A stretch of 61,688 nt of DNA, taken from the IMG/VR virus record IMGVR_UViG_3300042520_002382, positions 1 through 61,688 of that record, one strand, 5' to 3'. How positions within the stretch are numbered: the first letter of the stretch is position 1; each line of letters begins with the position of its first letter. The DNA is from a virus. The translations under genes were made by a program, and so were the position numbers. The notes under the pieces are model-generated. The model searched no databases. It was not told the origin of the DNA and saw nothing but the letters and a program-made list of their open reading frames with translations. Shown piece by piece: positions 8,781-45,460 of this stretch.

Positions 8781-8789
8781 GGGAAAACT
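8781..8789 (+). promoter_or_regulatory. Late-promoter-like motif GGGAAAACT (copy 1)
   Basis: Exact GGGAAAACT, followed by GCTCCCAG; 23 nt before the GTG of the portal gene. First of 16 identical plus-strand copies. Confidence 0.7.
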
Positions 8790-8812
8790 GCTCCCAGAAG
8801 GCATAGGCAGCG

Positions 8813-10351
8813 GTGCAGCAGCAGCAGATCAGCCATCCGACGACCAAGGGCGATCTGCCTTCGTTCCATCACCCCAGCCTGCGCGAGGTGCTGGGCGACC
8901 TTGATCTGGTTGCTGACTGCTGGGATTTGCTGCGGGGTGAGGCGAAAAAGCGGCACCTCCTGAAGGAGGCCGGCGAGCCCATGGCGGCCTACAAGGCCCG
9001 CGTGCAGCGCAGCTCCTACCCATCCTTCTTCCGTGATGGTGTCTCCGCCTTCGCTGGGGTGCTCAGCCGCTACGAGCTTCGCGGCGTGCAGCGGGGTCTC
9101 CTGGACGCTCGGGGGGACGTGGACGGCGAAGGCAACAGCCTCAAGGCATGGGGTTTATCAACCGATGCCATTGCGCTCCGTGATGGCGGCTGCCTACTGA
9201 TGGCCGACATGCCGCCGGACGCCGCCGATAGCCGCGCCGCCGAGCGAGCCCAGGGCCGCCGGCCCACGTTCTCCATGGCCGAGCGCCGCAACGTCCTCAA
9301 CTGGAGGCTCGCCAAGATTGGGGGCCGCCGCGTGCCGATTGCGGTCACGGTTTTGGAGTGGCACGAGGTTGAAGACGGGGACTACGGCCTCAAGATGGAG
9401 CCCCGTTACCGGGTGATGCAGGGCGGCCAGTGGCGGCTGCTAAAGATCACGGGTGACAGCGGCAAGGGCGCCACAGCCCGATTCAACCTGGAGGTGGCCA
9501 CCGATGAAGACGGGCGCCCGCAGAAGGGCACATTCCGGGGCCCCCGCGGCGAGCCGCTGGAGCGCCCCCCGGTGGTCTGGTACGGCCCCACCGCTCGCAG
9601 CGGCTTTGGGCAGGGCGGGCTGCCGCTGCTGAGCCTGGCGAACCTCACCCTCGATTGGTTCCGCGAATACTCCGACCTGAAGGAGCTGCTCCATCGCTGC
9701 GCCCTGCCGGTGGCCGTGGTGAAGGGCCGCCGGATGACCGGGCCCAACGGTGAGGTGCTGCCGCTGATGCTGGGGCCCAACTCCGTGGTGGAGTTCCCGG
9801 ATGGCACGGGCGATCTGGGCTTCGCCGAGCCAACCGGCAGCAGCCTGGACAAGCATTTGCAGCACCTGGAGGGGATCGAGAAGCTGATCGATCGCAGCAC
9901 CCTGTCGTTCCTGTTCTCCGGTGGTGGTGAGCGCACCGCCACGCAAGCCGAGCTGGAGAGCGCCCAACTGCAGGCCAGCATCACGGCCATGGCCGAGGCC
10001 AAAAGCTCCGCATGGGAGAGCCTGTTCCAAATCTGGGGCGCGTTCACCGGGGAGTTCCCCGAGCGTGACGCCGGTATCGATCTACTGCCAGGGGTCACCG
10101 ACAAGCCCGTGGACGATGCCCTGATCACCCTCGCCGGCAACCTTTACGACAAGGGCCTCCTCCTGCGCGAGACCGTCACGCACCTGGCCCAGAAGCGGGG
10201 CATGCTCCGGCCTGGCGCCGATGCCGACAAAGAGGCCGAGCTGCTGGCCGCCGAGGATGCCCGGCAGCAGGAGCTGATGAACCCGCCGGCGCCGGGGGTG
10301 AACGACCTGGCTGGAGGCGGCGTGGATGCGCAGGGGCTGCCCCTGATCTGA
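8813..10351 (+). CDS. Portal protein (DUF4055-like)
   Basis: 512 residues, GTG start 23 nt after motif copy 1. It forms the dodecameric ring at the capsid vertex to which terminase and the neck attach. The N-terminal pattern (Y..R..R..YPSFFRDGVSAFAGVLSR) and a long helical C-terminal region with AELESAQLQASITAMAEAKS look like the DUF4055 portal family as I remember it. Size and position between terminase and the MuF-type head gene fit. The C-terminal 40 residues are acidic and then Gly/Pro-rich. Confidence 0.78.
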   Translation: MQQQQISHPTTKGDLPSFHHPSLREVLGDLDLVADCWDLLRGEAKKRHLLKEAGEPMAAYKARVQRSSYPSFFRDGVSAFAGVLSRYELRGVQRGLLDARGDVDGEGNSLKAWGLSTDAIALRDGGCLLMADMPPDAADSRAAERAQGRRPTFSMAERRNVLNWRLAKIGGRRVPIAVTVLEWHEVEDGDYGLKMEPRYRVMQGGQWRLLKITGDSGKGATARFNLEVATDEDGRPQKGTFRGPRGEPLERPPVVWYGPTARSGFGQGGLPLLSLANLTLDWFREYSDLKELLHRCALPVAVVKGRRMTGPNGEVLPLMLGPNSVVEFPDGTGDLGFAEPTGSSLDKHLQHLEGIEKLIDRSTLSFLFSGGGERTATQAELESAQLQASITAMAEAKSSAWESLFQIWGAFTGEFPERDAGIDLLPGVTDKPVDDALITLAGNLYDKGLLLRETVTHLAQKRGMLRPGADADKEAELLAAEDARQQELMNPPAPGVNDLAGGGVDAQGLPLI

Positions 10352-10352
10352 C

Positions 10353-10361
10353 GGGAAAACT
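10353..10361 (+). promoter_or_regulatory. Late-promoter-like motif GGGAAAACT (copy 2)
   Basis: Exact motif two bases after the portal stop, followed by GCTGCAG; 21 nt before the ATG at 10383. No Shine-Dalgarno sequence lies between. Confidence 0.75.
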
Positions 10362-10382
10362 GCTGCAGAGACTGCCGTAGCC

Positions 10383-12008
10383 ATGCCCCGAGGAACCCGC
10401 CGAACGTCCTACGTGCGGGACAACCGCGGACGTTTCGCGAGCACCCCAGGCGGCGGTGCCCCGAAGCGGCCACCAGCCAAGCGGGTCAGCCGCGGCACCA
10501 ATCGCCTGACGCGGGACAACTCGGGCCGCATCACCAGTGTGGGCGGCAATGGCGCCACAGCCCGCGGGGGACGGCTGCGCACCGGGGCGGGGAACCTCAG
10601 GGCCAGGCAGACCATGGCGGTTCTATCCAATGGCCGCATGGCCAGTGTGCCCAAAGGCACCATCGGCCGCACCAGGAAGCAGCGGGAGATCACCATGATC
10701 GATCGCCCTACGAGCCAGCGGCAGGCCTACAACGAGGGCCGGGCCAAGCAGATGGCCGCGATAGCAGCACGCAAGGCGCCCAAGGCTTCGGCGCCGGGCC
10801 GGATTAAGGCAGGCAGGCAGGAAAGTGCCATCCGCAATACGACTGGCCAGAGCAAGACGCTCAACAAGTTCAATAGCAGGCCGGTTGGGACAAAGGTTAT
10901 AGGGCGCGGCGGTAAGTTAGTGCCAAGCCCTACCCGTGTTCCCCTTAGGGTTGCCGGCCCTGGCTCCAAAGGTAGCGACCGGGCTTTTGGGCGAACGGTC
11001 ACCAAGGCGGCGCGGGTTCGGGCCGCTTCGGCGGGGCGGAAGGCGGGGGCGACCGCGGCTAAGAAGCCTGTCGGGTGGATGCAATCACCAGAGGCACGGA
11101 AGGATCGGGTGCAGCAGGCGGCAGATCGAAAGGGCTACGCCAAAAAGTTACGCACACTACCTAAAGATGCCAGGCGAGCCATGCAAGTTGAGCGACTGGC
11201 GCGTAGGCAAAAAGGTATTGTCGTTGCGGGAAGCACGGCAAGTCAACTAACCAATATCGCAGAAGCCAGGGTGCGGCTTATTGGCAATGTAGGCAAGCGC
11301 AAGGACAAATTAACGCCCGGTCAAATTGGCGCGATGGCTCGCACGATGAGCGAATCGGCAAGGCGCTTGAAGGTCGGCATGGCCACGGGCCGCAGGGGGC
11401 GGATGAGGTACAACCCCAACGCCTTGCAGATCGCAACTGGCACCGCCGCCAGAAAGATCCGCGGGGCTCGCATTGGAGGGGTGGCGCGGAAGGGCAAGGC
11501 CACGCCGTCCAAGCCCGCCGCGCCAAAGCGCGTCACGGCGGCTCGCCCTGCCGGCGCCATCGCAAAAACAACTCGTGCAGGGCTGAAACTTGGCAAAAAT
11601 GCTGATGGCAAGTTTGCATGGTTCTCTCGTGATGGCAAGCAGCGAACCGGCGCATATAAGACAAAAAGGGAAGCGCAAAAAAGTCCAGAGATTGAAGGAA
11701 AAGAGCAGGCTGCAAGGTTCAAGGTACGAGCCAAAAGCAGCACAAAAGCTAAAATGGACCAGAAAGACTATCAAAATGCGGACAGCAAATGGGGGAAGCT
11801 TAGCGTTAGCCAGATAGAAAAAATGATTCAACGCGACACGGCGGCGGCAAGGTCGTTACAGAATAATCGCGAGTTTACGGGTAACAACACAAGAAGGTAT
11901 GGGCCCGCAATGGCCAATCAAGGCGCCAGGGAGGCGCTTGAGTCCGCAAGGCAGGCTGGCCGATACCTCTCAGAGCGCAGGGTGCGCAAACCCCGCCGCA
12001 AGCCCTGA
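10383..12008 (+). CDS. Basic GRFAS-family protein 1
   Basis: 541 residues, extremely rich in Arg, Lys, Ala and Gly. Box 1 near the N-terminus is RRTSYVRDNRGRFASTPGGG; box 2 (about residues 40-65) is NRLTRDNSGRITSVG plus GATARGGRLRT. Both recur in the genes at 13170, 14241 and 27069, and box 1 also at 18366. After about residue 380 comes the family's ARPAGAIAK-type spacer, then a distinct C-terminal part (DGKFAWFSRDGKQ) with lower GC. It ends KPRRKP like the protein at 18366. Located between portal and MuF-type head protein. It could be a packaged DNA-binding protein or an injected effector; this is inference. Confidence 0.7.
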   Translation: MPRGTRRTSYVRDNRGRFASTPGGGAPKRPPAKRVSRGTNRLTRDNSGRITSVGGNGATARGGRLRTGAGNLRARQTMAVLSNGRMASVPKGTIGRTRKQREITMIDRPTSQRQAYNEGRAKQMAAIAARKAPKASAPGRIKAGRQESAIRNTTGQSKTLNKFNSRPVGTKVIGRGGKLVPSPTRVPLRVAGPGSKGSDRAFGRTVTKAARVRAASAGRKAGATAAKKPVGWMQSPEARKDRVQQAADRKGYAKKLRTLPKDARRAMQVERLARRQKGIVVAGSTASQLTNIAEARVRLIGNVGKRKDKLTPGQIGAMARTMSESARRLKVGMATGRRGRMRYNPNALQIATGTAARKIRGARIGGVARKGKATPSKPAAPKRVTAARPAGAIAKTTRAGLKLGKNADGKFAWFSRDGKQRTGAYKTKREAQKSPEIEGKEQAARFKVRAKSSTKAKMDQKDYQNADSKWGKLSVSQIEKMIQRDTAAARSLQNNREFTGNNTRRYGPAMANQGAREALESARQAGRYLSERRVRKPRRKP

Positions 12009-12010
12009 CC

Positions 12011-13139: not shown

Positions 13140-13148
13140 GGGAAAACT
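13140..13148 (+). promoter_or_regulatory. Late-promoter-like motif GGGAAAACT (copy 3)
   Basis: Exact motif followed by GCAGCAGTAG; 21 nt before the GTG at 13170. The spacing decides the start of the next gene, whose frame is open much further upstream. Confidence 0.72.
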
Positions 13149-13169: not shown

Positions 13170-14210
13170 GTGGCGGGCGGTAGCAGGGGCAGGCGGACCT
13201 ACGCCAGGGACGACCGGGGGCGCTTCGCGAGCACCGGCACCGCTCGATCCCGTCCCGCCCCCAAGAAGGCGGCCACCAGTGGCCCGAACCGCCTCACCCG
13301 CGGCAACTCCGGCCGGATCGTTGGCGTCGGCAAGAACGGGGCGACCGCACGAGGGGGGAGGCTCCGCACTGCAGCGGGGAATCAGCGGGCAACGCAGACC
13401 GCCCGGCTTGCCCGTATGGGCGGCACCATCGCCAAGCCGAAGGGCCTCAAGCCCGGCACCCTCACGGCCAAGGCCAAGGCCAAGCCCACCAAGCCCGCCA
13501 CCCCTCGGGGCCCCGCCAGCAGCCGCCTCATGCCTGGGGAGTTGATGAACGCGGTGGCGCGGCCGGTGAACACGATGGCGAAGCCGAGGAAAGGGCGGAA
13601 TCCGTATCAGGCTGGCATTGCAAACATGGAGTACCAAGTATCAGCCACGAATGACGACAAAAAGGCTCGACTCGCCAACGCGCAAGCGACTAAGGCAATG
13701 TTTGAAGGTCAAGGGCTATCCGTGAAATACAACAGCGGTCGCGGCAGTAGTACGGTTGCGAGTTACAACCCTGCCACAAAGCAAATGACCATCAATAGGT
13801 CGCATACCAGTTGGGTAAATCCTGCTGCGGCTGCAATTAAAGAGCGCAGGAGAGGGGCGAAATCAAGCTCTGCGCCTATGCACACCTTTTTCCATGAAAT
13901 GGGCCACGCAAGGGACAAGAATCTTTTGTCTCGATCTACGCCGTTTGGTCAGTTCTGGGTGCTGGCCACGCAGAAAGGGCCAAGCCAAGAAGCCAGGGCG
14001 GCAAGGGGCAATCAGATGGAACGGCTTGCCCGTCGCGTCAGCCGCTACGCCACTACCAACCCCTCCGAGTTCATCGCCGAAACCTACGCCGGCCTCAAAA
14101 CCGGCCGCCGCTACGACTTCCAGGTGATGCGTGCCTACCGCGAGGCCATGGGCCTCTCGCCGACCCCTGCCGCCCGCCGCCGCAGCCGCCTCAGAAGATC
14201 CAAGCCCTGA
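13170..14210 (+). CDS. Basic GRFAS-family protein 2 with HExxH metalloprotease motif
   Basis: 346 residues. The GTG start was chosen because it lies 21 nt after motif copy 3 and yields box 1 (RRTYARDDRGRFASTG) at the usual N-terminal place; box 2 and a TIAKPKGLKPGTL spacer follow by residue 97. The C-terminal half is less basic and has FFHEMGHARDK (His at 242, 246; catalytic Glu 243) and, about 60 residues on, NPSEFIAE (Glu 300/304), the layout of a zinc peptidase of the gluzincin type. A secreted or virion-delivered protease is plausible. GC drops over 13610-13900, suggesting an acquired domain. Confidence 0.72.
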   Translation: MAGGSRGRRTYARDDRGRFASTGTARSRPAPKKAATSGPNRLTRGNSGRIVGVGKNGATARGGRLRTAAGNQRATQTARLARMGGTIAKPKGLKPGTLTAKAKAKPTKPATPRGPASSRLMPGELMNAVARPVNTMAKPRKGRNPYQAGIANMEYQVSATNDDKKARLANAQATKAMFEGQGLSVKYNSGRGSSTVASYNPATKQMTINRSHTSWVNPAAAAIKERRRGAKSSSAPMHTFFHEMGHARDKNLLSRSTPFGQFWVLATQKGPSQEARAARGNQMERLARRVSRYATTNPSEFIAETYAGLKTGRRYDFQVMRAYREAMGLSPTPAARRRSRLRRSKP

Positions 14211-14211
14211 C

Positions 14212-14220
14212 GGGAAAACT
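14212..14220 (+). promoter_or_regulatory. Late-promoter-like motif GGGAAAACT (copy 4)
   Basis: Exact motif one base after the previous stop; 20 nt before the ATG at 14241. The downstream GCAG element is degenerate here (GGGATAGCA). Confidence 0.72.
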
Positions 14221-14240: not shown

Positions 14241-15542
14241 ATGGCCCGAAGATCCGCCCGCCGCACCTATGTCCGTGATGGCCGGGGCCGCTTTGCCTCA
14301 ACTGGCACCACCACCGCCAAGGCCAAGCCCGCCGCCAGGCGAGCGCAGCGGGGCACGAACCGGATCACCAGGGACAACAGCGGCAAGATCACCGGCGTGG
14401 GCAAGAGCGGCGCCACAGCGAGGGGCGGTCGCATCAGGACCGCCGCCGGGAATCAGCGGGGGGCGGTGCTGGAGCGAGTGAAGAAGCGGCAGTCTCCTTC
14501 CGGGGCGATTAGGCGAACCGACATAAACAAGGCAAGGATTCACAACACGGTCAGCAAAATGGCTGAAAAGCGCAATAAGTCAGGCCTAAATAATCCTGTT
14601 CGCAAGATTGAAGATAATGCGGCGCGATTGAAGGCAGCGAGCAAGCGGATTGCAGGGCAGAATCGGGCCAAGCCAGCCGCTCCGGTCAAGCCAGCCAAGG
14701 CGCCACGGGCAGGCAAGGTGAAGGGCCCAAGCAAGGGCGAGCGAGTGTTGGCGCGGATTGCTCAAAACTTTGCCAGAGCATCCGCTGAGAGCCGCAGCAA
14801 GAAAGAGGAGCGCAAATTGGCGAGAACTGCCGCAGTCGCTGAGATGGCGCAAGGACGTGTTTCGCGACTGGCAGTAGGGAAGCGAGATCCAGCGCAGCAA
14901 TACACAAGGGCGGAGCTTTTGCCACAACTCAACAAGTCTCTCAAGCGGCCAATACCTAAGCGAGAAAGGAAGTCAACCCTTAATCCGGACTTCACGCGTG
15001 GACTCAGAGGTATTGCGCAAGGTGGAATGACGAAACTCAGGGCCGCTGCCAGAAAGCAGGGCAAGCTCACGGGTTCGCGGGCGCCCAAGCAACTTCGATC
15101 AGCCCGCACTGCCGGAACCGTCCGCAAACCCAAGGGCTACGCCCCTCCGAAGGCGGCACAGGCGAAAGTGCAGCCCCCAAAGCCCACGAGCAGGCGCATG
15201 CTCCGCATCAAAGCCTCTGGGCCGGCTGGCAAGTACAAGGGCGCATGGAACATGCCCGATTTCGCCAAGGGGCCCCGCTCCGCTGGCACCGTGCGGAGAC
15301 CCAAGGGCTACAGCCCTCCAAAACCTCAGGCGACAAGCATCAGCAGTTCGGTTCGCAATCGAGCAGCCTCAGCGCAGCGCCGCCGCCGCAACTCCATCCT
15401 TGACAGGACCAGGGGCACGATCGGCCGCAGGGGCCGCAACAGCAAGGAGAACCCCCGCATCCGAGCCGTAGACACCGGCATGCGGCAACTTGCCTTGGTC
15501 GGCAAGCCCAAGAAGCTCAAGCGCTACAAGCCCGTCAAGTAG
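14241..15542 (+). CDS. Basic GRFAS-family protein 3
   Basis: 433 residues. Box 1 RRTYVRDGRGRFASTG and box 2 NRITRDNSGKITGVG plus GATARGGRIRT lie within the first 75 residues. The middle (about 85-280) is a Lys/Arg/Ala-rich, probably helical stretch with lower GC. Two copies of the family spacer, AGTVRKPKGYAPPK near 290 and AGTVRRPKGYSPPK near 347, follow. No enzymatic motif seen. Strong positive charge suggests nucleic-acid binding. Confidence 0.65.
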   Translation: MARRSARRTYVRDGRGRFASTGTTTAKAKPAARRAQRGTNRITRDNSGKITGVGKSGATARGGRIRTAAGNQRGAVLERVKKRQSPSGAIRRTDINKARIHNTVSKMAEKRNKSGLNNPVRKIEDNAARLKAASKRIAGQNRAKPAAPVKPAKAPRAGKVKGPSKGERVLARIAQNFARASAESRSKKEERKLARTAAVAEMAQGRVSRLAVGKRDPAQQYTRAELLPQLNKSLKRPIPKRERKSTLNPDFTRGLRGIAQGGMTKLRAAARKQGKLTGSRAPKQLRSARTAGTVRKPKGYAPPKAAQAKVQPPKPTSRRMLRIKASGPAGKYKGAWNMPDFAKGPRSAGTVRRPKGYSPPKPQATSISSSVRNRAASAQRRRRNSILDRTRGTIGRRGRNSKENPRIRAVDTGMRQLALVGKPKKLKRYKPVK

Positions 15543-17325: not shown

Positions 17326-17334
17326 GGGAAAACT
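17326..17334 (+). promoter_or_regulatory. Late-promoter-like motif GGGAAAACT (copy 5)
   Basis: Exact motif one base after the preceding stop, followed by CAGGTACGG; 22 nt before the ATG at 17357. Confidence 0.7.
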
Positions 17335-17356: not shown

Positions 17357-17620
17357 ATGCCCGACCGCTCCCCCACGCTTCGCCTGTTCCAGGGCCTCAG
17401 TGTCGCTGTTCTCGGCCGCAATGCCCCGGCGGCACGGCAGGGCCTGCGGATGCTCACCACTCTCACCGACGACCCCGAGGGAGAGCAGATCCTGCGGCTG
17501 CTGAGCAACAACCTCGATCCCGCCGGCCGGTTCTGGCTGGGCACCCTGCATGGGGCCCGCGTGGGCCTGGAGGATCCGGCCCTGGAGGGCCCGGCTGCGG
17601 GAAAACTGCTGGCAGCCTGA
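17357..17620 (+). CDS. Hypothetical protein
   Basis: 87 residues; ATG chosen over an in-frame TTG at 17345 because it gives the usual 22-nt distance to motif copy 5. Helical (LFQGLSVAVLGRNAPAARQG). Its last codons (GKLLAA) are built from motif copy 6, so promoter and coding sequence overlap. Unknown function; its position suggests a head or neck protein. Confidence 0.5.
   Translation: MPDRSPTLRLFQGLSVAVLGRNAPAARQGLRMLTTLTDDPEGEQILRLLSNNLDPAGRFWLGTLHGARVGLEDPALEGPAAGKLLAA
17599..17607 (+). promoter_or_regulatory. Late-promoter-like motif GGGAAAACT (copy 6)
   Basis: Lies within the final codons of the upstream gene, followed by GCTGGCAG; 22 nt before the ATG at 17630. Confidence 0.72.
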
Positions 17621-17629
17621 TCTGTGCCG

Positions 17630-18133
17630 ATGCTTGCCCCTGATCCCCTGTGGCGCCCCACGGCCACCAGCGCCCGCAACGATCGCGACCTGATCCGCAC
17701 CTACATCGGCTGGCCCGCCACTGAGGGCAGCCTGGTGGAGCTCACACAGCAGATGAACGCGGTCGCCACGCACAGCCCCAGCACCGTGACCCAGATCCAA
17801 GGGTGGCTGGACGAGATCGTGACCCTGGAAGAGACCCAGGCCGATGAGGTTGACGCGGGCACCGCGCACCTTGGGAACGCCGAGGAGTACGAGGGGCCGA
17901 TCCCAGGCACCACGCCCACGCGGGAGCAGCAGCAGAGCCAGGTGGGCAAGCTGAGCTGGGACACCTCCCTCCTGAAGGCCCGCTACAAGTTCGGCAGTGG
18001 CGCCAGGGCCTCGGCGCAGGGGCAGCGGGATGAGCGGATCCAGCTCCTGATCGGCCGGATTGCCAGCGCCCTGAATGTGCCCCGGATCGCACCGCAGGCG
18101 GCGATGGGCGCCGGGATGCTGCTGCGGAGCTGA
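17630..18133 (+). CDS. Hypothetical protein, possible head-tail connector
   Basis: 167 residues from the ATG at 17630; an in-frame GTG lies six bases upstream. N-terminal helix (DRDLIRTYIGW), a long helical middle (VELTQQMNAVATHSPSTVTQ) and a C-terminal helix ending NVPRIAPQAAMGAG. The size and place after the head genes would fit a connector or completion protein, but no motif proves it. Confidence 0.5.
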   Translation: MLAPDPLWRPTATSARNDRDLIRTYIGWPATEGSLVELTQQMNAVATHSPSTVTQIQGWLDEIVTLEETQADEVDAGTAHLGNAEEYEGPIPGTTPTREQQQSQVGKLSWDTSLLKARYKFGSGARASAQGQRDERIQLLIGRIASALNVPRIAPQAAMGAGMLLRS

Positions 18134-18162: not shown

Positions 18163-18171
18163 GGGAAAACT
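18163..18171 (+). promoter_or_regulatory. Late-promoter-like motif GGGAAAACT (copy 7)
   Basis: Exact motif followed by GCGGGCAGT; 25 nt before the ATG of a 41-residue Lys-rich gene. Confidence 0.72.
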
Positions 18172-18335: not shown

Positions 18336-18344
18336 GGGAAAACT
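18336..18344 (+). promoter_or_regulatory. Late-promoter-like motif GGGAAAACT (copy 8)
   Basis: Followed by GAGGCAGTAG, the best match to the bipartite consensus; 21 nt before the ATG at 18366. Confidence 0.78.
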
Positions 18345-18365: not shown

Positions 18366-19943
18366 ATGGCCCGCGGCGGCGGCAGAGGCAGACGCACCAG
18401 CTACGTGCGCGACAACAGCGGGCGCTTTGCCTCGACTCCCGGCGGCGGACCGCCCAAGCGCAGCACGCCGGCCACCAGGCGGGCGGCGATGCGCAAGGCC
18501 CTGCCCAAGGTCACCGGCGGCACCCTCGGGGCCCGCGGGAGCCTTCGCCGCAGCCGCGCCAAGCTCGCTGGCAAGAACCCGGCTGATCGCAGCCTGCGGG
18601 GGTCGCTCAGCCTGCGGGCGCAGAAGGGGGCCGTAACCAGGGGCGCCAACCGCCTTGGGAAGGTGCGAGCGGCCTCCACGGTGCGGATGGCTGGCAAGGG
18701 GCCGGCAGGGGTGATCCGGGGAGGGCGGAAGGTTGCGGCCAAGCCGGTGGTGGCGCCCAGGTCATCAGTGCGGGTGATCCGCCCCAACCGCCCGGCAATG
18801 CGGCCAGGGCCGGCGCCTGACCGCGGCAAGATCAGCGAGTACGTGGGCGCGGTGAGAGGGGCCCGGCGACGGCTCAGCAGCGCCAAGCCAGGAAGCGCCA
18901 ACGCAGCCGAGGCAAAGCAAGGCCTCAAGGACAGCCGGCGGGCCCTCAGTCGCCGCATCCAACGGGAGCGGGGTGCTCGCCGTGGCCTGAAGCCAGCCAC
19001 CTCCCAGCAGGTTCTCACCGGCACGGTCCCGGCGCCTCCTGCCAGGCGTGCGAAGGCAGCCCGCCCCTCCGGCACCCTCGCCAAGCCCCGCAATCTCAAG
19101 CCCGGCGCCATCGCCGCACGGAAGGCCAAGGCAGCCGCCTCAGGCGCACGGGCCGCCAGGGCAACCACCAACTACAACCGGGCCCAGAAGGCGGCCCTAG
19201 AGGCGCAGCAGCGCCTCAACCGGCGGCGCTCGCCTAAGAATCAAGCCGCCGCCGACAAGGCGCAGAAGACCCTTCAGACCGCCGCCCGCGCCTACCGGAT
19301 CCTCGTGGGCCTTGGGGGCGAGAAAATGGCCGTCGCTCGCAAGCCAAGCCCCAAGGGCGCCGGGTCCCGGATGAAGGCCGCACGGCCGGCGGGGACGGTG
19401 GCGAAGCCAAAGGGGTTGAAGCCAGATCGCTGGATCAAAAAAGAGCGCGTGATCGGCAAGGGGGAGGTATGGATGGGCAAGTGGACACCCCCTAGCGGCG
19501 GCAAGGTGAAGGCAGGTAATCCGCCCAAACAAAAGCGCTCCGCACCGCGTCTATCGTTCTCCGATGCCGCAACAAAGCGTAGGTTTAACAGGTCTGGAGA
19601 CTTTGCGCTTTATCGCTATCGAGAGAACCAAGCTGCCGTTATGTCTGGCGACAAAACAGCTCAACTCAAGGCAGGTCGAAATCAATTTATAAGATTTTTG
19701 GCATCAAACCTCAACAGACAGGCACTAAAGGCTACTGCCACACAAAGGAAGAAAGCGTATCAGTCAATTAAAAGGTTTTCAACAATCAGCAATCCGCAGC
19801 CAGGCGGCGATTGGAAGCGCAATCGGGATCGGGCAGCAATGGATGAGATCAAGCGGCTAAAGGAAACCGCACGGCAAGACGGAATTGGCGGCAAATGGGA
19901 TCCGCGAAACCGCACGAAACGCAAGCCCCGCCGCAAGCCCTAA
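18366..19943 (+). CDS. Basic GRFAS-family protein 4
   Basis: 525 residues. Box 1 RRTSYVRDNSGRFASTPGGG is present, but box 2 is absent or very degenerate (a TRGANRLGKVRAAS segment stands near residue 95). Two spacers, ARPSGTLAKPRNLKPG near 232 and ARPAGTVAKPKGLKPD near 339, divide the chain. The C-terminal part from about 345 is unique, with lower GC (19540-19800) and aromatic residues (FALYRYRENQAAVMSG), suggesting a folded cargo domain. It ends KRKPRRKP. No catalytic motif recognised. Confidence 0.65.
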   Translation: MARGGGRGRRTSYVRDNSGRFASTPGGGPPKRSTPATRRAAMRKALPKVTGGTLGARGSLRRSRAKLAGKNPADRSLRGSLSLRAQKGAVTRGANRLGKVRAASTVRMAGKGPAGVIRGGRKVAAKPVVAPRSSVRVIRPNRPAMRPGPAPDRGKISEYVGAVRGARRRLSSAKPGSANAAEAKQGLKDSRRALSRRIQRERGARRGLKPATSQQVLTGTVPAPPARRAKAARPSGTLAKPRNLKPGAIAARKAKAAASGARAARATTNYNRAQKAALEAQQRLNRRRSPKNQAAADKAQKTLQTAARAYRILVGLGGEKMAVARKPSPKGAGSRMKAARPAGTVAKPKGLKPDRWIKKERVIGKGEVWMGKWTPPSGGKVKAGNPPKQKRSAPRLSFSDAATKRRFNRSGDFALYRYRENQAAVMSGDKTAQLKAGRNQFIRFLASNLNRQALKATATQRKKAYQSIKRFSTISNPQPGGDWKRNRDRAAMDEIKRLKETARQDGIGGKWDPRNRTKRKPRRKP

Positions 19944-21693: not shown

Positions 21694-22148
21694 TCCTCGC
21701 CGAGGCCAACCGCAACCGCGAGGCCCGGCCCGAGCCCTACAGCCTGCGGGAGTTCTGCTTCTGGGCAGACGTGGCCGAGAAGCCGCGCCCCCCCAGCGAG
21801 GCCGGTGCCGCCCTGCTGGAGCTGCTGGAGCGCAACCTGCTGCCGGGGTTCGTGCTTGACGGCCCATGGCTGGCCGATCTGGAGGCCCAGGGCCGTGGTG
21901 TCACCCCACCGCCGCGGCTGTGCTGGGCGGCTGAAGATGCGATCCTGCTGGCCCCCTACCGGGTGGATGCAGGCCACTGGGGCGGGTTCCTCGTGGCGCA
22001 GGTCAGCGCCGCGGGGCAAGCGCGGGAGTTCGCATCAGAGGCCGGCGAGGTGGTGGCCCTGCGGGTGCCGGCCGATGCGGTGCAGGGGCGAGCGTTCGCC
22101 GCGGCGCAGGCCGGCGCAGTGCTGGCCATGAGCAGCCGGGAAAACTGA
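20911..22148 (+). CDS. Tail assembly chaperone, -1 frameshift product (GT-like)
   Basis: Reading 20911-21480, then slipping back one base at G-GGA-AAG and continuing from 21480 to 22148, gives about 412 residues with no stop. The extension contains DWARAFWDCRRLWPGAPEF, then RERFGELPGGYVLQALQEGH and SLREFCFWADVAEKPRPPSE, and ends MSSREN. The part from 21771 could be read alone but has no start signal. Its last codons overlap motif copy 9. The pair sits before the tail tube gene rather than between tube and tape measure, which is unusual. Confidence 0.72.
21474..21480 (+). other. Programmed -1 frameshift site GGGAAAG
   Basis: Heptamer X-XXY-YYZ in phase with the upstream frame (codons GGA at 21475, AAG at 21478). 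It is identical to the slippery sequence of the lambda G/GT genes. Downstream sequence is GC-rich and could provide a stimulatory structure. Confidence 0.75.
22138..22146 (+). promoter_or_regulatory. Late-promoter-like motif GGGAAAACT (copy 9)
   Basis: Overlaps the last codons (Arg-Glu-Asn-stop) of the GT-like product, followed by GACGGCAG; 21 nt before the tail tube ATG. Confidence 0.75.
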
Positions 22149-22167: not shown

Positions 22168-23022
22168 ATGACCACCACAAACATCAGCTACGCCGCCGCG
22201 CTCGACATTGCGCACTACATCGTGCCGATGCGAATGGACTCCATCACCCTGGAGGATGCCGCCGCGGCAGCGGCGAACAATGGGGCGCAGCTCAGCGCCT
22301 GGCTGAATGCCGCCAACGCGATCTCCGGCCCCGCCACCGTGACCGCCAGCGGCACAGGGTCCACCTTTGAAATCCTGATCAACTCCGCCACCCGGACCAT
22401 CACCAACGTGGCGCTCGCCAGCAACGTGGTGACGATCACCACCAGCGCCGCCCATGGACTAGCCACTGGCGATCAGGCAAAGGTGGCCGCCACCACTGCC
22501 ACCGCCGTGAATGGCACCTTCACCGTGGCAACGGCGCCCAGCACAACCACCTTCACCTACGCCTTGACCGCCAGCAACATCACCAGCGCGGTTGATACCG
22601 GCACCGTCACCACTGGTGTTTACAATCTGAACGGCACCGGCAAGCCGATCCAGCTCCTCAACGTCACCGGCGCTCCCCTCTCGACGCAGACTGCTGATGA
22701 GAGCGTGATCACACACGATCAGGTTACCCGTGGATCCTCAATTTCGATCGGGATCACTGATACCCACAGCATCGCCTTTAAGGGTATGACGGTGCATCGT
22801 GCGGTAGATCACAAAATCATGGAACTGCTGCGGGCCCATAGCGTGGCTGAGAAGCTGGCGGTGAAGTACCTGCGTGTCGGCCCCGGCGGCACTGTTGAGA
22901 AGAAGCTCTGCTATGGCCGGATCTCCTCCAAGCAGGAAGAGGGCGACGCAGGGGCCCTGGTGAAGTACGGCGCCAGCCTCAACGTGCTGGGCAGCGTCTA
23001 CACCATCTTCGACAACACCTGA
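22168..23022 (+). CDS. Tail tube protein with inserted beta domain
   Basis: 284 residues. N- and C-terminal parts are consistent with a tail tube: YAAALDIAHYIVPMRMD at the start, and GVGITD-type then SKQEEGDAGALVKYGASLNV near the end. Between about residues 68 and 150 lies a Thr/Val/Ala-rich insert: VTITTSAAHGLATGDQAKV, then NGTFTVATAPSTTTFTY. The same insert type occurs in the protein at 40888. It has its own promoter motif, as expected for a high-copy structural protein. Confidence 0.65.
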   Translation: MTTTNISYAAALDIAHYIVPMRMDSITLEDAAAAAANNGAQLSAWLNAANAISGPATVTASGTGSTFEILINSATRTITNVALASNVVTITTSAAHGLATGDQAKVAATTATAVNGTFTVATAPSTTTFTYALTASNITSAVDTGTVTTGVYNLNGTGKPIQLLNVTGAPLSTQTADESVITHDQVTRGSSISIGITDTHSIAFKGMTVHRAVDHKIMELLRAHSVAEKLAVKYLRVGPGGTVEKKLCYGRISSKQEEGDAGALVKYGASLNVLGSVYTIFDNT

Positions 23023-23702: not shown

Positions 23703-24150
23703 TTTTCTGAGAAGAAGGTGGATTTTGCGGTCCATACGAGTGATGAACCGGAAAAAGGCAAAGTCCATGTTGGGACCGAAGGCAGCGCGGATTGCAATGC
23801 CACACCTACCCTAGCCACCGTGTCTGGATACGGACAAGGGCTAGGGTTAAGAATGGTTTTCAGGGGGCATGCGTTTTGGTCAAGACAAGCACGCTGCGCC
23901 ATCACAGCATCAGGCTTCGCACCGGCCCGGCTGGGGTAACCTCCAAGGGTCCGGGTCGGCCTGAATACAACACCAGTCCCTGACTGGGAATTAGGGCAGG
24001 GGTGGGGGGTTCGCTAGGGCCCTCCTGAAACCCCATGCAACGGCCCGGCGTAAACATTGCTTGACAAAACGCAGGCAGATAGTCCTACGCTTTGTGCACC
24101 TTGGCAGGCATGTCAGGGCCCCTAGCTGCCCGCCCCGAGCGGGACAACCC
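23703..24150. other. Intergenic region between divergent genes
   Basis: About 450 bases with no convincing gene. It must hold the promoter of the minus-strand coiled-coil gene (not clearly seen) and the plus-strand promoter at 24061. A perfect small inverted repeat, CCAGTC-CCT-GACTGG, lies at 23973-23987. No GGGAAAACT motif is present. Confidence 0.5.
24061..24091 (+). promoter_or_regulatory. Host-type sigma-70 promoter candidate
   Basis: A perfect -35 box TTGACA at 24061-24066, then TACGCT at 24086-24091 as a weak -10 (19-bp spacer). It lies 60 bases upstream of the KilA-N start, suggesting that gene is transcribed by unmodified host polymerase, unlike the surrounding late genes. Confidence 0.4.
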
Positions 24151-27031: not shown

Positions 27032-27040
27032 GGGAAAACT
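27032..27040 (+). promoter_or_regulatory. Late-promoter-like motif GGGAAAACT (copy 10)
   Basis: Exact motif in the divergent gap, followed by GCCGTAGAGG; 28 nt before the ATG at 27069. Confidence 0.72.
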
Positions 27041-29031: not shown

Positions 29032-29040
29032 GGGAAAACT
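29032..29040 (+). promoter_or_regulatory. Late-promoter-like motif GGGAAAACT (copy 11)
   Basis: Exact motif followed by GCATCAGTAG; 25 nt before the GTG of the tape-measure gene. Confidence 0.75.
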
Positions 29041-32000: not shown

Positions 32001-33091
32001 AGCAGCGGATCGCGGCAATCAAGCGCGATGGGGAAGGGATTGAGTACCGCAGTATGCAGGCCAGCATCGAGGCCACGGCGCAGCGCTTTGAGATGGAGCG
32101 CAAGGTGCTTGCGTTGAAGCAAGCCATGCAGGTACTGGAGCAGCAAGGCGCCATCCGCGCCGCCGAGCGGGCGGTGCTGCAAGAGCGTTCTCAGTTGCAG
32201 GAGCTGAAGGGCAAGCTGCTTGATCCAAGCACTACCCCCTTGCAAAGAGGGTCAATCAATGAGCAGATCAAGATCCAAAACGAATCCATCAAAATCACAC
32301 AGCAGCAGCTTGAGTTTGAGCGTCAACGGATGGCCGGGCTAGGAATGATTCTCGGGCTGGAGCGCCAGACGCAGGAGGCGCAGCAGGGGACCGTCGCCAA
32401 CCAGCAGCGTGCCGCCGCCGCGGGCAAGGGCTGGGAGGAAAGCCTGGAGGGAGCGCTGGCCAAGGTGGACATGGCCGCCGCTGGGGTTGACCGACTGCAG
32501 AAGGTGCTTGTCGGCACGATCCAGGGCGGCAACGGCCCGGTGGAGCAGATTTACGCCACTGCAGCAGGCCTACCCGAGCCCCTGCGGAACGCGACCGACG
32601 CAGCCGGAAACCTGGCCAGAGGGTTTGCGGCGGCCAATGAGCAAGCCGCTGTCCTGCTCCAAACCGTCTCCAAACTGGCCAGCGCCCCCTCCGCCCGCTG
32701 GGCCGGCGGCGGGGTGGATCCCGGCGGCCGGTATCAGGTCAACGAGTTGGGCACCGAGAGCTTCCTCAGCCGATCGGGCGCCCTGTCACTGATCCATGCC
32801 CCGGCCTACGGCTCCTGGAGCCCCCCATCGCCCGGCATGGTGCTGCCGGCGGGCCTCACCGCTCGCCTGGACGCCATGGGCGCCTTCTCTGGCGGGGCCC
32901 CTGCTCCCGTGCTCGCGGGCATCGCCCCGGCCATGGGCAGCGGCGGCAGCAGCCAGCAGGTTGCGGCCCTGGGCCGCTTGCAGCGCTCCATCGATGCCCT
33001 GGAGAACACGATGCGCAGCTACGACCCCGCGCTCACCATCAACCTGCCGGGCAACGCCGGGCTCCTCCACACCCTGCAGGGCTTCCGATGA
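29066..33091 (+). CDS. Tape measure protein
   Basis: 1341 residues, by far the longest gene, GTG start 25 nt after a motif copy. It sets tail length and helps DNA cross the envelope. N-terminal helices (LALLLENQAEIARELERAGG) lead into a TP901-type domain with NTANSSNASIEGLGYTFEYT and AAAGLMANAGIQGSVAGTGL. Hydrophobic Ala/Gly segments at about 490-620 (GGSLAIVLAAAAGIALLTG and GWLVGLVGAAAAAATV) are likely membrane-active. A long coiled coil occupies 640-1150. The C-terminus is Gly/Pro-rich. Confidence 0.9.
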   Translation: MADLQVSLALLLENQAEIARELERAGGQAGAGFGRGLSAEAQKAFNDLVSQAERAAKEAGLRFNKVKLQFETVSGDVIPQKTLDQIGRVNKGFAEATQAVNAFKSATTAATRESAAGMNLLEAAITGVAVSLTSKLTDAAGSALGSVRGLVQGFLELDGELRLASAAAGETGGYQRLSQIVDQVGIDAAGTTKQVAELATSLVRAGFSISEVEGALAGVVRGAEATGTGFQAFGDIVGNTLRGFGLEVDQTARVVDVLTNTANSSNASIEGLGYTFEYTAPIAKALGVSLEDVAAAAGLMANAGIQGSVAGTGLRTGLQKLQEAAGGASPEVLGLVRGQERLQLVMSKLGATVTDASGKLLPLEQVFLRLKGGLEKLNQADQVQLANILFGDDAGSKFLSITNQSNSAIVKMFSDLRNSKGATDAARNAMVGMGLELQQLTGTMDSLRNNIGGVMAAGLRPLVQAANLAVGAISGLPKPVKDTGAALVALGIASTGAAISIAALNLVLAQTGGLAGLAIAARAAGVAVAGIGGSLAIVLAAAAGIALLTGRFAEMDATTKTLVQTTIALGTGVLVFRGIAAAAGIAATGLGILNIQLGRTAVLTALASGAAKGGWLVGLVGAAAAAATVYGVLNNNIKTTGEETEALSSKARELKDQIAQLQKEIADGKKLGIDTTDAQQRVNELYMKLREIERPLELKLSIEKAKSEAKTLKDELSKLSEGDSGRPGLQAKVDGAERYLKLLQQIDRAQAVTDASPVAQQGAKDLAELEKRVNRLLARKLTLPVKAPEQKDIDKELDVYQRQIDLRKVGIRVAIDREEAVQQLGELQGDIAVALSKGVDPTKLRSQLLPLQIQVRNLDLERDKINKDLTATLNQQVAADGKRVLTAKEQLEAARGQLTVEQARASLADKIAGQDTARLRAVQQVADAYVNLANAQAALAQSGFDVERSRNSSRLNLAERELQFLRERGASAGAIQAAEQRIAAIKRDGEGIEYRSMQASIEATAQRFEMERKVLALKQAMQVLEQQGAIRAAERAVLQERSQLQELKGKLLDPSTTPLQRGSINEQIKIQNESIKITQQQLEFERQRMAGLGMILGLERQTQEAQQGTVANQQRAAAAGKGWEESLEGALAKVDMAAAGVDRLQKVLVGTIQGGNGPVEQIYATAAGLPEPLRNATDAAGNLARGFAAANEQAAVLLQTVSKLASAPSARWAGGGVDPGGRYQVNELGTESFLSRSGALSLIHAPAYGSWSPPSPGMVLPAGLTARLDAMGAFSGGAPAPVLAGIAPAMGSGGSSQQVAALGRLQRSIDALENTMRSYDPALTINLPGNAGLLHTLQGFR

Positions 33092-36679: not shown

Positions 36680-36688
36680 GGGAAAACT
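36680..36688 (+). promoter_or_regulatory. Late-promoter-like motif GGGAAAACT (copy 12)
   Basis: Followed by AAGGCAG; 21 nt before the GTG at 36710. The base after the motif is A rather than the common G. Confidence 0.75.
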
Positions 36689-36709: not shown

Positions 36710-37153
36710 GTGCCAGCACTGACGCAGACCCCCTTTGAAGCGGGGCGGATGTTCGCAAACGACTACGCCGGCAAGCGTGCCCGCCTGTGCCTGGCCAACA
36801 ACACCACGTCGCTAGGCCTGGCCAGCACCACGGCGCAGTGGGATGCGGCTGAGATCAGCGGCAACGGCTATGCACGGGTGGAATGGACGATCCCCTCGGG
36901 CAGCTACAACAGCACCACCGAGCGGTTTGAGGTGGCGGCACAGGCCGCTGCCTTCACCGCATCCTCCGGCGGTAGCGGGCTGAGCTGGAACACGGTCTAC
37001 CTGGTCCTCGGCACCATCTCCGGCGGCGTGACGACGTGGTTCACGGGCGTGAGCTACCTGCTCGTGGAATCGCCCACCGTTGCGCTGAGCCCTGGCGAAC
37101 CACGCACCTACAACGTGGTGCTGTTCACTGATGGGTTCGTGGTGACGAGCTGA
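36710..37153 (+). CDS. Beta-rich tail-tip-region protein
   Basis: 147 residues, GTG start 21 nt after motif copy 12. Strand-rich with YARVEWTIPSGSYNSTTERF and a short C-terminal strand (YNVVLFTDGFVVTS). Its stop overlaps the next gene (GATGG context). Probably a minor tail or fibre-attachment protein; no family recognised. Confidence 0.55.
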   Translation: MPALTQTPFEAGRMFANDYAGKRARLCLANNTTSLGLASTTAQWDAAEISGNGYARVEWTIPSGSYNSTTERFEVAAQAAAFTASSGGSGLSWNTVYLVLGTISGGVTTWFTGVSYLLVESPTVALSPGEPRTYNVVLFTDGFVVTS

Positions 37154-38818: not shown

Positions 38819-38827
38819 GGGAAAACT
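38819..38827 (+). promoter_or_regulatory. Late-promoter-like motif GGGAAAACT (copy 13)
   Basis: Exact motif, 41 nt before the ATG of the scaffold-like gene. Followed by GAGCCGTACC. Confidence 0.7.
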
Positions 38828-38868: not shown

Positions 38869-39687
38869 ATGAAACGGACCCAGATTGATCAGCTCCTCGG
38901 AACTGCCGGCGGACGGCTGCGGCCATGGGCCACCGTGGACCCTGAACCCGTGGACTCGGGGGATGGCGGTGGAGGCGGAAGCGATGAAGGGGGCGACGGC
39001 GCCCCTCTAGGCCCCAACGGGGAGAAAGCCCTTCAAGATGAGCGAGTGCTACGGAAGACGCTGGCCAAGGAGCTTGAGGATCTGCGGGCGCAGATGGAGC
39101 AGATGAAGGGGCTCGTGGACCCCAAGGTTTACGCCCAGGCCCAGGCCCAAGCGGCGGCGCTCAGGCAGCAGCTTGACGACAAGGAGCGGCTGTCGGCCGA
39201 AGAGCGGCAGCGCCTGGAGGCCAAGGCCAACGATCGGGTCAGCAAGGCGGAAGCCCGCGCCACCAAGGCCGAGGCCGATCGCATCCAACTGCAGGTCAAG
39301 ACCTTTGCGCAGGGGCTGTTCCTGGCGACCGATGGCCGCGATGGTGGCGACGGAAGCGGAAAAACCTACTTTGACGCCTGGTTCGCCTTCCACGGCAGCC
39401 AGCACATCCGGGTGGACCCTGCCACAGGCAAAGAGTTCATCGTTGATGCCGATGGCGATCCTGTGAAGGAGGGTGACCAGAACGTTGATCCGGTGAAGTG
39501 GCTGAACGAGCAGGCGGACGGCTCGGCCGTGGTCGGGAGCTTCTTCAAACCCAAGGGCGGCAGCGGCGGCGGCGGCCTGGTCGGCGCTCGCGGGTTCCGC
39601 ACCACGCAGGGGCTCACCCCGGAACAGGTCAGGAGCCTTACCGCCAGCCAGAAAATGGCCATGCACCGGGAGGCAGCCGGCCGTTGA
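38869..39687 (+). CDS. Capsid scaffolding-like protein
   Basis: 272 residues. An acidic Gly-rich N-terminus is followed by a long coiled coil at about 60-145 (LAKELEDLRAQMEQMKGLVD, RLSAEERQRLEAKANDRVSK). A compact region with FDAWFAFHGSQHIRVDPATG and a C-terminal helix (EQVRSLTASQKMAMHREAAG) complete it. Coiled coil, charge and place directly before the major capsid gene fit a scaffold, released or degraded during maturation. Confidence 0.65.
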   Translation: MKRTQIDQLLGTAGGRLRPWATVDPEPVDSGDGGGGGSDEGGDGAPLGPNGEKALQDERVLRKTLAKELEDLRAQMEQMKGLVDPKVYAQAQAQAAALRQQLDDKERLSAEERQRLEAKANDRVSKAEARATKAEADRIQLQVKTFAQGLFLATDGRDGGDGSGKTYFDAWFAFHGSQHIRVDPATGKEFIVDADGDPVKEGDQNVDPVKWLNEQADGSAVVGSFFKPKGGSGGGGLVGARGFRTTQGLTPEQVRSLTASQKMAMHREAAGR

Positions 39688-39705: not shown

Positions 39706-39714
39706 GGGAAAACT
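39706..39714 (+). promoter_or_regulatory. Late-promoter-like motif GGGAAAACT (copy 14)
   Basis: Followed by GAGGCGA. Unlike the others it is 158 nt from the next start (major capsid), with a tandem repeat between. Confidence 0.68.
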
Positions 39715-39872: not shown

Positions 39873-40850
39873 GTGGCCGTCACCACCTACCACCAAGTTT
39901 TCGAGCAGAAGTCTTTCGAGGCCGATGCAAACATGCAGGAGCTTGCTGTTCTCCAGACCATGCTGGACAACGGCCCCCTGTTCGCCATGCTGCCCTTCAA
40001 GGACATCGTGGGCGCGTCTGAGGTGTTTTCCTTGGAAGATGAGCTGCCGTTCGTGGCTGCTCGCCTCCTTGACGAAAAGCCCCAGAACGGACGTGGGAGC
40101 TCAATCCCGCAGTCGGTTATCACTGCGATCTACACGGCCGACATCGAAACCGATGTTCAGCGGCTGGCTCGCGAAGGTCGCGGATCTCACGACACTGAGG
40201 TTCTGCGCAATGCACGCGCCATCCGCATGCAGTTGGAGACCGATTTCGTGCGCGGCAGCCTCAATGCCACCGGCGGCCGGTCGTTCAACGGCCTTGCCAA
40301 CCTGATCAAGGCTGAAACCACCAACAGCCAGTCTATCCGCAACGATGCAACCGGAGCTGCCCCCAAACTTGCGGCCCTGGACGACATGATGAACCAGGTG
40401 GACGCGGCCCCAAGCGAGAAGAAGCTGCTGATCCCCAAGGCCCTGCGGCCCGCTCTGCAGGCGCTGAAGCGTGATCAGGCCTTGACCGGGAACTTGGAGC
40501 TTGCCGAGAACTCTCTCGGGCAGCCAGCAATGTTCTACGACGAGGCCGAAATCATCCTCACGGATGTTGATCCCGCCAACGTCGCAATTCAGGGTTTCAC
40601 CGAAGGGAGCGGTAGCAATACCTGCTCCATCTATTGCGTTGCCCTTGGCGAGGATTCGGTCTACATGGCCCAAGGCCTAAGTATGGCCAACGGCGAGCTG
40701 CGGCCCGGCCTGGTGGTTTACGACGTGGGCGAGGCATACGCCACAACCCACTTCAAGACCCGGATCAATATCGACTGCGCAGCGGTGATCAAAAACCCCC
40801 GCAAGGCCGCCCGCCTTTACAACGTGACCAAGGCCAACTTTACGGCCTGA
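39873..40850 (+). CDS. Major capsid protein
   Basis: 325 residues, GTG start. The layout fits an HK97-fold capsid protein: an N-terminal arm, ELPFVAARLLDEKPQNGRGS, a long spine helix region with DTEVLRNARAIRMQLETDFV, then FNGLANLIKAETTNSQSI, and a C-terminal domain (YATTHFKTRINIDCAAVIKN). Scaffold upstream and a decoration-like gene downstream support it. It lies about 31 kb after terminase, downstream of the tail genes, which is unusual. Confidence 0.8.
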   Translation: MAVTTYHQVFEQKSFEADANMQELAVLQTMLDNGPLFAMLPFKDIVGASEVFSLEDELPFVAARLLDEKPQNGRGSSIPQSVITAIYTADIETDVQRLAREGRGSHDTEVLRNARAIRMQLETDFVRGSLNATGGRSFNGLANLIKAETTNSQSIRNDATGAAPKLAALDDMMNQVDAAPSEKKLLIPKALRPALQALKRDQALTGNLELAENSLGQPAMFYDEAEIILTDVDPANVAIQGFTEGSGSNTCSIYCVALGEDSVYMAQGLSMANGELRPGLVVYDVGEAYATTHFKTRINIDCAAVIKNPRKAARLYNVTKANFTA

Positions 40851-41660: not shown

Positions 41661-41960
41661 GTGAGCATTCAATCAATCAGTGCCTGCCCTGGGATGGCCT
41701 GGAACCCAGGGTCTGGCTGGGCTGGACCGGCTGCTGCCTCAGGCGTGGCCGCTGAGCCTGCAGCGCCTGATCCCGAGCCCCGGCGCCCGGCGGGCAGGGC
41801 CCGCCTGCGGCGCCGCGCCCGCACCGAGCAAGGCACCTTCCAGCCCGACGACCCGGCAACACCTGACGTGGATGAGGCATTCGAGGAAGCGCCCGAAGCC
41901 GAGGCCGAAGCGCAACCCGATGCCGAGGCCCAGCCGGGAAAACTGGTGCAGAGGGACTGA
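41661..41960 (+). CDS. Hypothetical protein with acidic C-terminus
   Basis: 99 residues, GTG start preceded by AGGAG eight bases upstream, one of the few clear Shine-Dalgarno sites in the late region. It has an Ala/Pro/Gly-rich N-terminal part, a basic patch (RARLRRRARTEQGTF) and an acidic tail (DVDEAFEEAPEAEAEAQPDA). The last codons contain motif copy 15. Unknown; a head-tail joining or assembly factor is possible. Confidence 0.5.
   Translation: MSIQSISACPGMAWNPGSGWAGPAAASGVAAEPAAPDPEPRRPAGRARLRRRARTEQGTFQPDDPATPDVDEAFEEAPEAEAEAQPDAEAQPGKLVQRD
41936..41944 (+). promoter_or_regulatory. Late-promoter-like motif GGGAAAACT (copy 15)
   Basis: Inside the 3' end of the upstream gene, followed by GGTGCAG; 20 nt before the ATG at 41965. 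Confidence 0.75.
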
Positions 41961-41964: not shown

Positions 41965-42318
41965 ATGGCCTGGGACGAGGGCGAAGCGATCACATGGGAG
42001 CAGGGCCTTGATGGCGCCGTTCTGATTGAGTTGTTCAACGGCCAGCAGGCGTGGCCATTCCCTGGTTGGGATATAAATGCAGTCTTGTCTGACGAAAAAG
42101 GACGCGCCGTTTACAGTCTCACCACTATTGTAGATACTATTGCTGGAACAATCCGAGTCATTGCCCCTGAAGCCATAATCAATAGCCTCAAGGTTTCTAA
42201 GGCGTGGTTCCTTAATGTTTTGATGATTGCCCCCGGCAATATCCAGGCCGATGATCATCACCTGATATACCGGCCGGTAACGATTGCAGTTCGCCCCGCC
42301 AGGAGGGATCCAGCATGA
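41965..42318 (+). CDS. Hypothetical beta-rich protein
   Basis: 117 residues, chosen ATG 20 nt after motif copy 15. Strands such as VYSLTTIVDTIAGTIRVIAP and a C-terminal YRPVTIAVRPARR; lower GC than neighbours. Overlaps the next gene by four bases. The layout resembles small phage fibre-assembly proteins; not recognised. Confidence 0.5.
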   Translation: MAWDEGEAITWEQGLDGAVLIELFNGQQAWPFPGWDINAVLSDEKGRAVYSLTTIVDTIAGTIRVIAPEAIINSLKVSKAWFLNVLMIAPGNIQADDHHLIYRPVTIAVRPARRDPA

Positions 42319-42941: not shown

Positions 42942-42956
42942 TCCTGTGAGGTAACC

Positions 42957-45260: not shown

Positions 45261-45364
45261 CTCAACGGTAGCCAGCCTGCTCAACTAAAGCCAGTTTTCG
45301 TAAACCTTGTGAACATGCCACCAACAACGCAATCGTCCCAGCCAATTCACCCGACCTTTGCGCC

Positions 45365-45460
45365 ATGACCGCCTGGCACCTGGCACTGTTCCCAGTCGCC
45401 TGGTACCTGGTGACAGCGGTGCCTGCCATGCCGCCTGAAGTGCTGCATCGGGAAAACTGA
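45365..45460 (+). CDS. Tiny membrane peptide (31 residues)
   Basis: MTAWHLALFPVAWYLVTAVP followed by a short tail ending HREN; the last codons lie in motif copy 16. One hydrophobic segment. Its start overlaps the stop of a 17-codon frame beginning at 45315. It may be part of the holin region; weak support. Confidence 0.35.
   Translation: MTAWHLALFPVAWYLVTAVPAMPPEVLHREN
45450..45458 (+). promoter_or_regulatory. Late-promoter-like motif GGGAAAACT (copy 16)
   Basis: Followed by GAGGCAGAG; 20 nt before the ATG at 45479. The last copy on the genome. Confidence 0.75.

Follow-up and report, generated by a model that had tools for sequence, protein, structure and literature searches.

The sigma factor gp55 of bacteriophage T4 combines a region-2 domain with a C-terminal clamp-binding peptide and serves an 8-bp promoter that has no -35 box (PMC2988020, PMC7892883). 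Cellular sigma factors such as SigB, SigF and FliA possess region 4 and have promoters with a -35 box (GTTTAA for SigB), and the -10 box of SigB starts with GGG (PMC9847131). A group-3 sigma factor, expected to control a specific regulon, was noted in the siphophage PSS2 by Sullivan et al. in 2009; as far as the accessible part of that paper goes, promoters of PSS2 were predicted with BPROM, for sigma-70 only, and the motif GG.A..CTA described below is not reported (PMC2784084). In PSS2, as well as in S-CBS2 and S-CRES1-3, the terminase large subunit gene is followed by a gene for a group-3-like sigma factor and the portal protein is homologous to that of the virus analyzed here. In the open literature (subscription papers excluded) we found no prior report of the promoter or of the sigma clamp peptide that are the subject of this analysis.

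The stretch of DNA under study (hereafter the window) comes from a virus; this contig of 61.7 kb has a GC content of 0.64 and encodes portal, head and tape-measure proteins as well as an integrase. It contains 16 exact copies of the nonamer GGGAAAACT on the plus strand and none on the minus strand. Although there are no transcript data, we consider it highly probable that GGGAAAACT is a -10-only late promoter, read by the host RNA polymerase core together with a phage-encoded sigma factor. The gene for this sigma factor, which lies between the terminase large subunit gene and the first copy of the motif, and its clamp-binding-type tail were both missed in the initial annotation. The features that concern us are the following:

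6005..7552, plus strand: terminase large subunit (PHROG 38, E 6.6e-75), directly upstream of the sigma gene, no motif ahead
7641..8555, plus strand: phage sigma factor, 304 aa (PHROG 351 "RNA polymerase sigma factor", E 3e-18; Pfam Sigma70_r2 at cut-off)
7785..7982, plus strand: part coding for sigma region 2 (core binding, -10 reading; Pfam PF04542)
8511..8525, plus strand: codons of QLGLF, pentapeptide of the beta-sliding-clamp-binding type near the sigma C-terminus (Q, L, L and F invariant in A1)
8781..8789, plus strand: copy 1, -10 element of putative late promoter, portal protein 8813-10351
10353..10361, plus strand: copy 2, gene 10383-12008
13140..13148, plus strand: copy 3, gene 13170-14210
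14212..14220, plus strand: copy 4, gene 14241-15542
17326..17334, plus strand: copy 5, small gene from 17349
17599..17607, plus strand: copy 6, gene 17624-18133
18163..18171, plus strand: copy 7, small gene from about 18197
18336..18344, plus strand: copy 8, fullest form GGGAAAACTGAGGCAGTAG, gene 18366-19943
22138..22146, plus strand: copy 9, tail protein 22168-23022 (34% identical to the S-CBS2 tail protein over 117 columns)
27032..27040, plus strand: copy 10, gene 27069-28571
29032..29040, plus strand: copy 11, tape measure protein 29066-33091
36680..36688, plus strand: copy 12, gene 36710-37153
38819..38827, plus strand: copy 13, 50 nt before the scaffold-like gene 38869-39687 (the same distance in S-CRES1)
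39706..39714, plus strand: copy 14, major head protein 39873-40850, 167 nt ahead
41936..41944, plus strand: copy 15, gene 41965-42318
45450..45458, plus strand: copy 16, gene 45479-45736

Every coordinate given for these copies in the initial annotation, and the lack of copies on the minus strand, was borne out by exact search. In 100 dinucleotide-preserving shuffles of the window the mean number of copies over both strands was 0.31 and the maximum was 2, and no other 9-mer of the window is as strongly over-represented as GGGAAAACT (16 copies vs. 0.11 expected). It is also nearly invariant there, since just three one-mismatch copies occur, against an expected 8.8 matches with at most one mismatch. 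The preceding base is C in all 16 copies, which extends the motif to CGGGAAAACT, and the following base is G in 14 of them. No copy is found in the early minus-strand region or anywhere before position 8781. In 12 of the 16 cases an ORF of 60 aa or more has its start codon 27–36 nt past the first G (12.5% for random positions), i.e. about 19–28 nt from the last T of the motif. It had been claimed that 14 copies lie 20–28 nt before a start codon. Two copies call for a correction: the copy at 38819 has its start codon 50 nt away and the one at 39706 has none close by, being located 167 nt ahead of the GTG of the major head protein. The accompanying statement that all served genes are late ones (head, tail, lysis) is only partly supported: portal, tail protein, tape measure, scaffold and major head protein could be identified, but most of the remaining genes have no known function and no lysis gene was identified in the window.

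Two further observations concern the layout of the contig. A KilA-N domain protein is encoded at 24061-24786, inside the late region, without a motif copy of its own. A 15-base repeat with ACCTCAGCGG, which codes for A-N-L-S-G in a pentapeptide-repeat protein, occurs in the same orientation at both ends of the contig (11-236 and 61510-61660). The assembly was therefore probably interrupted within one repeat gene, and the viral genome may be almost complete and either circular or permuted.

A megablast search of the window against INPHARED returned no matches, and relatives were therefore sought by protein searches. The sigma factor of the window is encoded at 31 viral-contig loci including the window itself, with 53–100% identity (one of them is a tail fragment). 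All of these loci except the short contig L031 carry GGGAAAACT, in 1–8 copies within the fetched DNA and always on the sigma strand. Scanning of 14 contigs revealed 2–16 copies on the sigma strand, with 11–16 in those longer than 30 kb; one additional copy on the opposite strand was seen in each of G006 and G007, and the reversed-pattern control yielded 0–1 matches per strand. A second, alignment-based search reached sigma factors at 23–48% identity, among which three contigs with a sigma factor 42–45% identical to ours have seven exact copies of GGGAAAACT each on the sigma strand (G020 has one more on the other strand). Loss of the motif from relatives with the same genes had been named in the initial annotation as an outcome that would refute the promoter; the motif passed this check, as it keeps to one strand and to one distance from the start codon down to 42% sigma identity.

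Sorted by sigma identity, the motif falls into three classes: CGGGAAAACTG (at least 53%), CGGGAnAncTA (42–45%) and GGnAnnCTA (at most 35%). Each of these classes (A, B and C) is confined to a single sigma clade, with one change per class on the sigma tree. This link between motif and sigma factor is a correlation, and the two are inherited together. Automatic searches of upstream regions proved too noisy on 20-kb loci, and whole contigs with mechanically called ORFs were used instead; a pattern of the GG.A..CTA family was then top or joint top upstream in most phages tested. It was not the top upstream pattern in the distant contigs G022, G024, G025 and G029, although in the first three of these the motif is present with strand bias. 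In the upstream regions of L086, L074 and L092 there is also a TGnTAnA-like pattern, perhaps representing host-type extended -10 promoters of earlier genes. In L144 and L155, from metagenome-assembled genomes of Cyanobium and Synechococcus, we found prophage-like pairs of terminase and short sigma factor, surrounded by ORFs at closely matching positions and without GG.A..CTA enrichment; these pairs are possibly domesticated elements.

The nearest named phages by terminase, portal and sigma factor are S-CBS2, S-CRES1-3 and PSS2, siphophages that infect Synechococcus and Prochlorococcus, from which we infer that the host of the window phage is probably a picocyanobacterium. In S-CBS2, S-CRES1 and PSS2 the sigma gene directly follows the terminase gene, as in the window, and the sigma factors of the cultured cyanosiphophages are 27% identical to that of the window. 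An unbiased search with gapped k-mers in the 60 nt ahead of annotated genes, with no prior motif, ranked GG.A..CTA first in S-CBS2, S-CRES1 and PSS2 (27, 23 and 16 genes, respectively, with less than 0.6 expected). A shift by one base brings GGnAnnCTA to the window motif, where it stands against GGAAAACTG and is register-matched to GGAAAACT, so the conservation postulated at the outset extends to the cultured phages in a diverged form; compared with theirs, the motif of the window has greater length and allows less variation. The cyanosiphophages S-CBS3 and S-CBS4 (first 45 kb), which served as controls, showed neither copies upstream of genes nor strand bias. The motif stands ahead of the portal and tape measure genes in each of the four annotated phages, and in both the window and S-CRES1 it precedes the start of the scaffold gene by 50 nt. 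The deposited sigma sequence of S-CBS2 (gp077, L040:20832-21500) ends early and lacks the tail; this record is probably frameshifted, since the +1 frame continues with a family tail, ...RLQGSLF.

With sites aligned within each genome, no conserved element was found upstream of the motif in any clade (mean 0.07–0.21 bits over -45 to -3), in agreement with the initial annotation, which had seen no conserved -35. The median distance from the first G to the start codon is 28–34 nt in every clade. If the T of the motif is set at -7, the positions invariant across clades are G-14, G-13, A-11, C-8 and T-7; in sigma-70 promoters it is the A at -11 and the T at -7 that sigma region 2 flips out. Downstream, a signal had been described as GCAG; such a signal is present, but its form is rather [C/T]AG, peaking 6–7 nt past the T of the motif. 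Among 36 non-redundant clade A sites, 47% have [C/T]AG with the A 6 nt after the T and another 17% have it at 7 nt, against a background of about 3%; in clade C the peak is weaker but in the same place (11% and 8% vs. 3%). The A or G of this trinucleotide is the start of the RNA that we infer, with predicted leaders mostly about 15–20 nt long and an unusually long one for the copy at 39706. The original interpretation as an extended -10 plus an initiation site giving a very short leader fits the register obtained from this comparison, which no transcript data yet support. The supposed absence of Shine-Dalgarno sequences is broadly true as a tendency, seen in two cultured relatives, where the Shine-Dalgarno core was found in 3 of 19 motif-driven vs. 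29 of 70 other genes (S-CBS2) and in 3 of 18 vs. 32 of 79 (S-CRES1); in PSS2 it is not rarer (3 of 14 vs. 15 of 77). Start-associated sequences of cluster K mycobacteriophages are short conserved oriented elements a few bases before the start codons of many genes; the window motif differs from them in its distance of about 30 nt from the start and in its -10 features. A sigma-54 reading, based on the GG-N10-GC spacing in some copies, was dropped, as it is the A-run that is conserved and the spacing varies; cyanobacteria, moreover, are not known to have sigma-54. In sequence form only, GGGAAAACT qualifies as a G-rich -10 box of the SigB kind, and a GGG-starting -10 box for the group-3 branch is supported by the GGGTAT of SigB (PMC9847131).

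The gene at 7641-8555 is the only sigma-70-type gene of the contig, with a single Sigma70_r2 match. Its mechanically called ORF opens at TTG 7521, but the relatives begin at the equivalent of ATG 7641. The protein matches PHROGs 351, 36098 and 21612 only and none of the gp55 family, its sole Pfam match is to region 2, and the nearest solved chains are SigB, SigF and FliA, which are also its best sequence matches. In the family of 40 phage sigma factors, region 2 (PF04542) was found in 37 members (24.6 bits for the window protein, cut-off 24) and weak matches to region 3 (PF04539) in six, while region 4 (PF04545, PF08281) was not detected by Pfam in any; the same kind of search found region 4 in all four cellular cyanobacterial sigma factors. 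By this measure the phage family fails the criterion of an ordinary group-3 sigma factor, which is a region 4 with a helix-turn-helix, and profile alignments of the phage sigma to SigB and SigA stop where region 4 begins. AlphaFold modeling gave a mean pLDDT of 50 with 12 sequences and 74 with 40 sequences. The latter model shows confident helices over region 2, then a region-3-like part (the helices predicted at residues 123-164 fall where region 3 would be), a linker of low confidence and another helical domain. As the model is only moderate (pLDDT 74) and Foldseek aligns it over almost the entire length of full sigma factors, it cannot be ruled out that the modeled helices of residues 188-248 represent a degenerate region 4 that has left no signal in the sequence. 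The best explanation is that the protein descends from the group-3 (SigB/SigF/FliA-like) branch, from which it retains region 2 and, weakly, region 3, and that it has lost a recognizable region 4. Additional sigma region-2 matches occur in G006 (C1:37129-37344, in a 306-aa frame) and G010 (C1:8060-8269, in a 325-aa frame), on the strand opposite to the terminase-linked sigma gene.

We propose that the host core RNA polymerase with the phage sigma factor would read the GGGAAAACT promoters, with recognition of G-14 G-13, A-11, C-8 and T-7 and, in the clade of the window, also of C-16, G-15 and the A-run. Without a recognizable region 4, the sigma factor would read no -35 box. RNA would start at the A or G of [C/T]AG, leaving leaders of about 15–20 nt with little use of Shine-Dalgarno sequences. 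The sigma factor would be made earlier, as its gene precedes the first copy and has no copy itself, and would then activate the genes for head and tail. What was observed directly is the motif with its strand, spacing and conservation, the way it covaries with the sigma clades, the lack of a detectable region 4 and the peptide QLGLF; binding of the sigma factor to the motif, the start base and the late timing are inferred.

It could be argued that the promoter is read by a host sigma factor, alone or redirected by a phage activator, and that the adjacent phage sigma serves some other role, as there are no binding data for the latter and a second sigma-like gene is present in clade C phages and in G006. 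However, the window encodes just one sigma factor, the motif class follows the clades of the phage sigma, there is no conserved second element for an activator or region 4 to read, and upstream copies are lacking in the cyanosiphophages S-CBS3 and S-CBS4; we regard this explanation as improbable, while leaving it a small chance. Oriented, near-invariant, intergenic copies are reminiscent of the stoperators of mycobacteriophages, and the phage has an integrase. That the motif is not a promoter but an operator or stoperator bound by a repressor or regulator of the phage is nonetheless very unlikely: no copy occurs in the early minus-strand region, the motif is not palindromic, its best-conserved positions correspond to -11 and -7 in a -10 box and an initiator-like [CT]AG is found at the predicted +1. 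We give hardly any credence to an RNA element in the 5' leader (a translation signal or protein-binding site), which would predict no link to a sigma factor; the short fixed distance to the start codon and the few Shine-Dalgarno sequences would agree with it, but the distance from the first G ranges over 23–50 nt, and is 167 nt at the head protein, with the motif kept. A promoter used by a single-subunit RNA polymerase of the phage, to which the 16 identical copies might point because many identical strand-specific promoters are typical of T7-like phages, can practically be dismissed, as a PHROG scan of 40 ORFs gave no match to an RNA polymerase and the motif lacks the T7-type 17-base upstream core. 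The reading of GGGAAAACT as a late promoter, already put forward in the initial annotation, is supported by conservation on one strand and covariation with the sigma clades, though by no experiment.

The C-terminal part of the sigma factor is variable except for EILxxAEQLxLF. In the window this tail reads QLGLF, and QxxLF occurs in 24 of the 40 family members: clade B sigma factors terminate exactly in QLDLF and the long ones of clade C in QGSLF, QASLF and similar. The members that lack it belong mainly to one nested subclade of short sigma factors. The clamp-binding peptide of E. coli Pol II likewise reads QLGLF, and the consensus for bacteria is QL[S/D]LF (PMC3716654). In 18 genomes, QLxLF was found within the last 60 residues of only 9 of 2,370 mechanically called ORFs, 8 of which are this sigma factor, and the window encodes no second credible protein with a C-terminal QLxLF. 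As a candidate for a gp33 analogue we considered the 71-aa ORF after the sigma gene (8552-8767) and rejected it, as it has no clamp peptide and no support. The nested subclade (L065, L066, L068, L070, L072, L077, L079, L080 and L090) has short sigma factors of 209–222 aa that have lost the clamp-binding tail, and G023, the contig of the tail-less member L068, still has GG.A..CTA promoters; in this subclade the clamp contact may be supplied by something else, or may be needed by none.

The likeness to the T4 late system (gp55, gp33, gp45) consists in a phage sigma factor with region 2 and no detectable region 4, a -10-type late promoter lacking a -35 box and a C-terminal peptide of the sliding-clamp-binding type. 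The differences are that the window sigma is SigB/SigF-like without a match to the gp55 family, that its promoter is GG.A..CT, and that no gp33 counterpart or phage clamp was identified in the window. In T4 the essential clamp-binding peptide is that of gp33, whose homologs are too variable to be found by sequence. Because the sigma tail parallels the clamp-binding peptide of T4 gp55, we suggest that late transcription may be coupled to replication via the host clamp, an inference for which there are no binding data; the partner would be host DnaN, since the peptide is of the bacterial beta-clamp type (QLxLF). A broader hypothesis, to which we would not quite give an even chance, is that this cyanobacterial siphophage family independently evolved a T4-style replication-coupled late switch, in which a SigF-like sigma factor without region 4 gained a beta-clamp peptide and host DnaN on replicating phage DNA activates -10-only GG.A..CT promoters.

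In a widespread group of siphophages that probably infect cyanobacteria, among them the cultured PSS2, S-CBS2 and S-CRES phages, the late genes hereby gain a predicted reader and a predicted address. This provides a predicted answer to a question open since 2009, namely what the regulon of the PSS2 group-3 sigma factor is, and the availability of cultured phages makes the promoter prediction testable now. The covariation of sigma factor and promoter over three clades constitutes a natural data set on how region 2 reads the -10 box. Should the clamp peptide prove functional, coupling of late transcription to replication would not be unique to T4 relatives and could be built with the host clamp.
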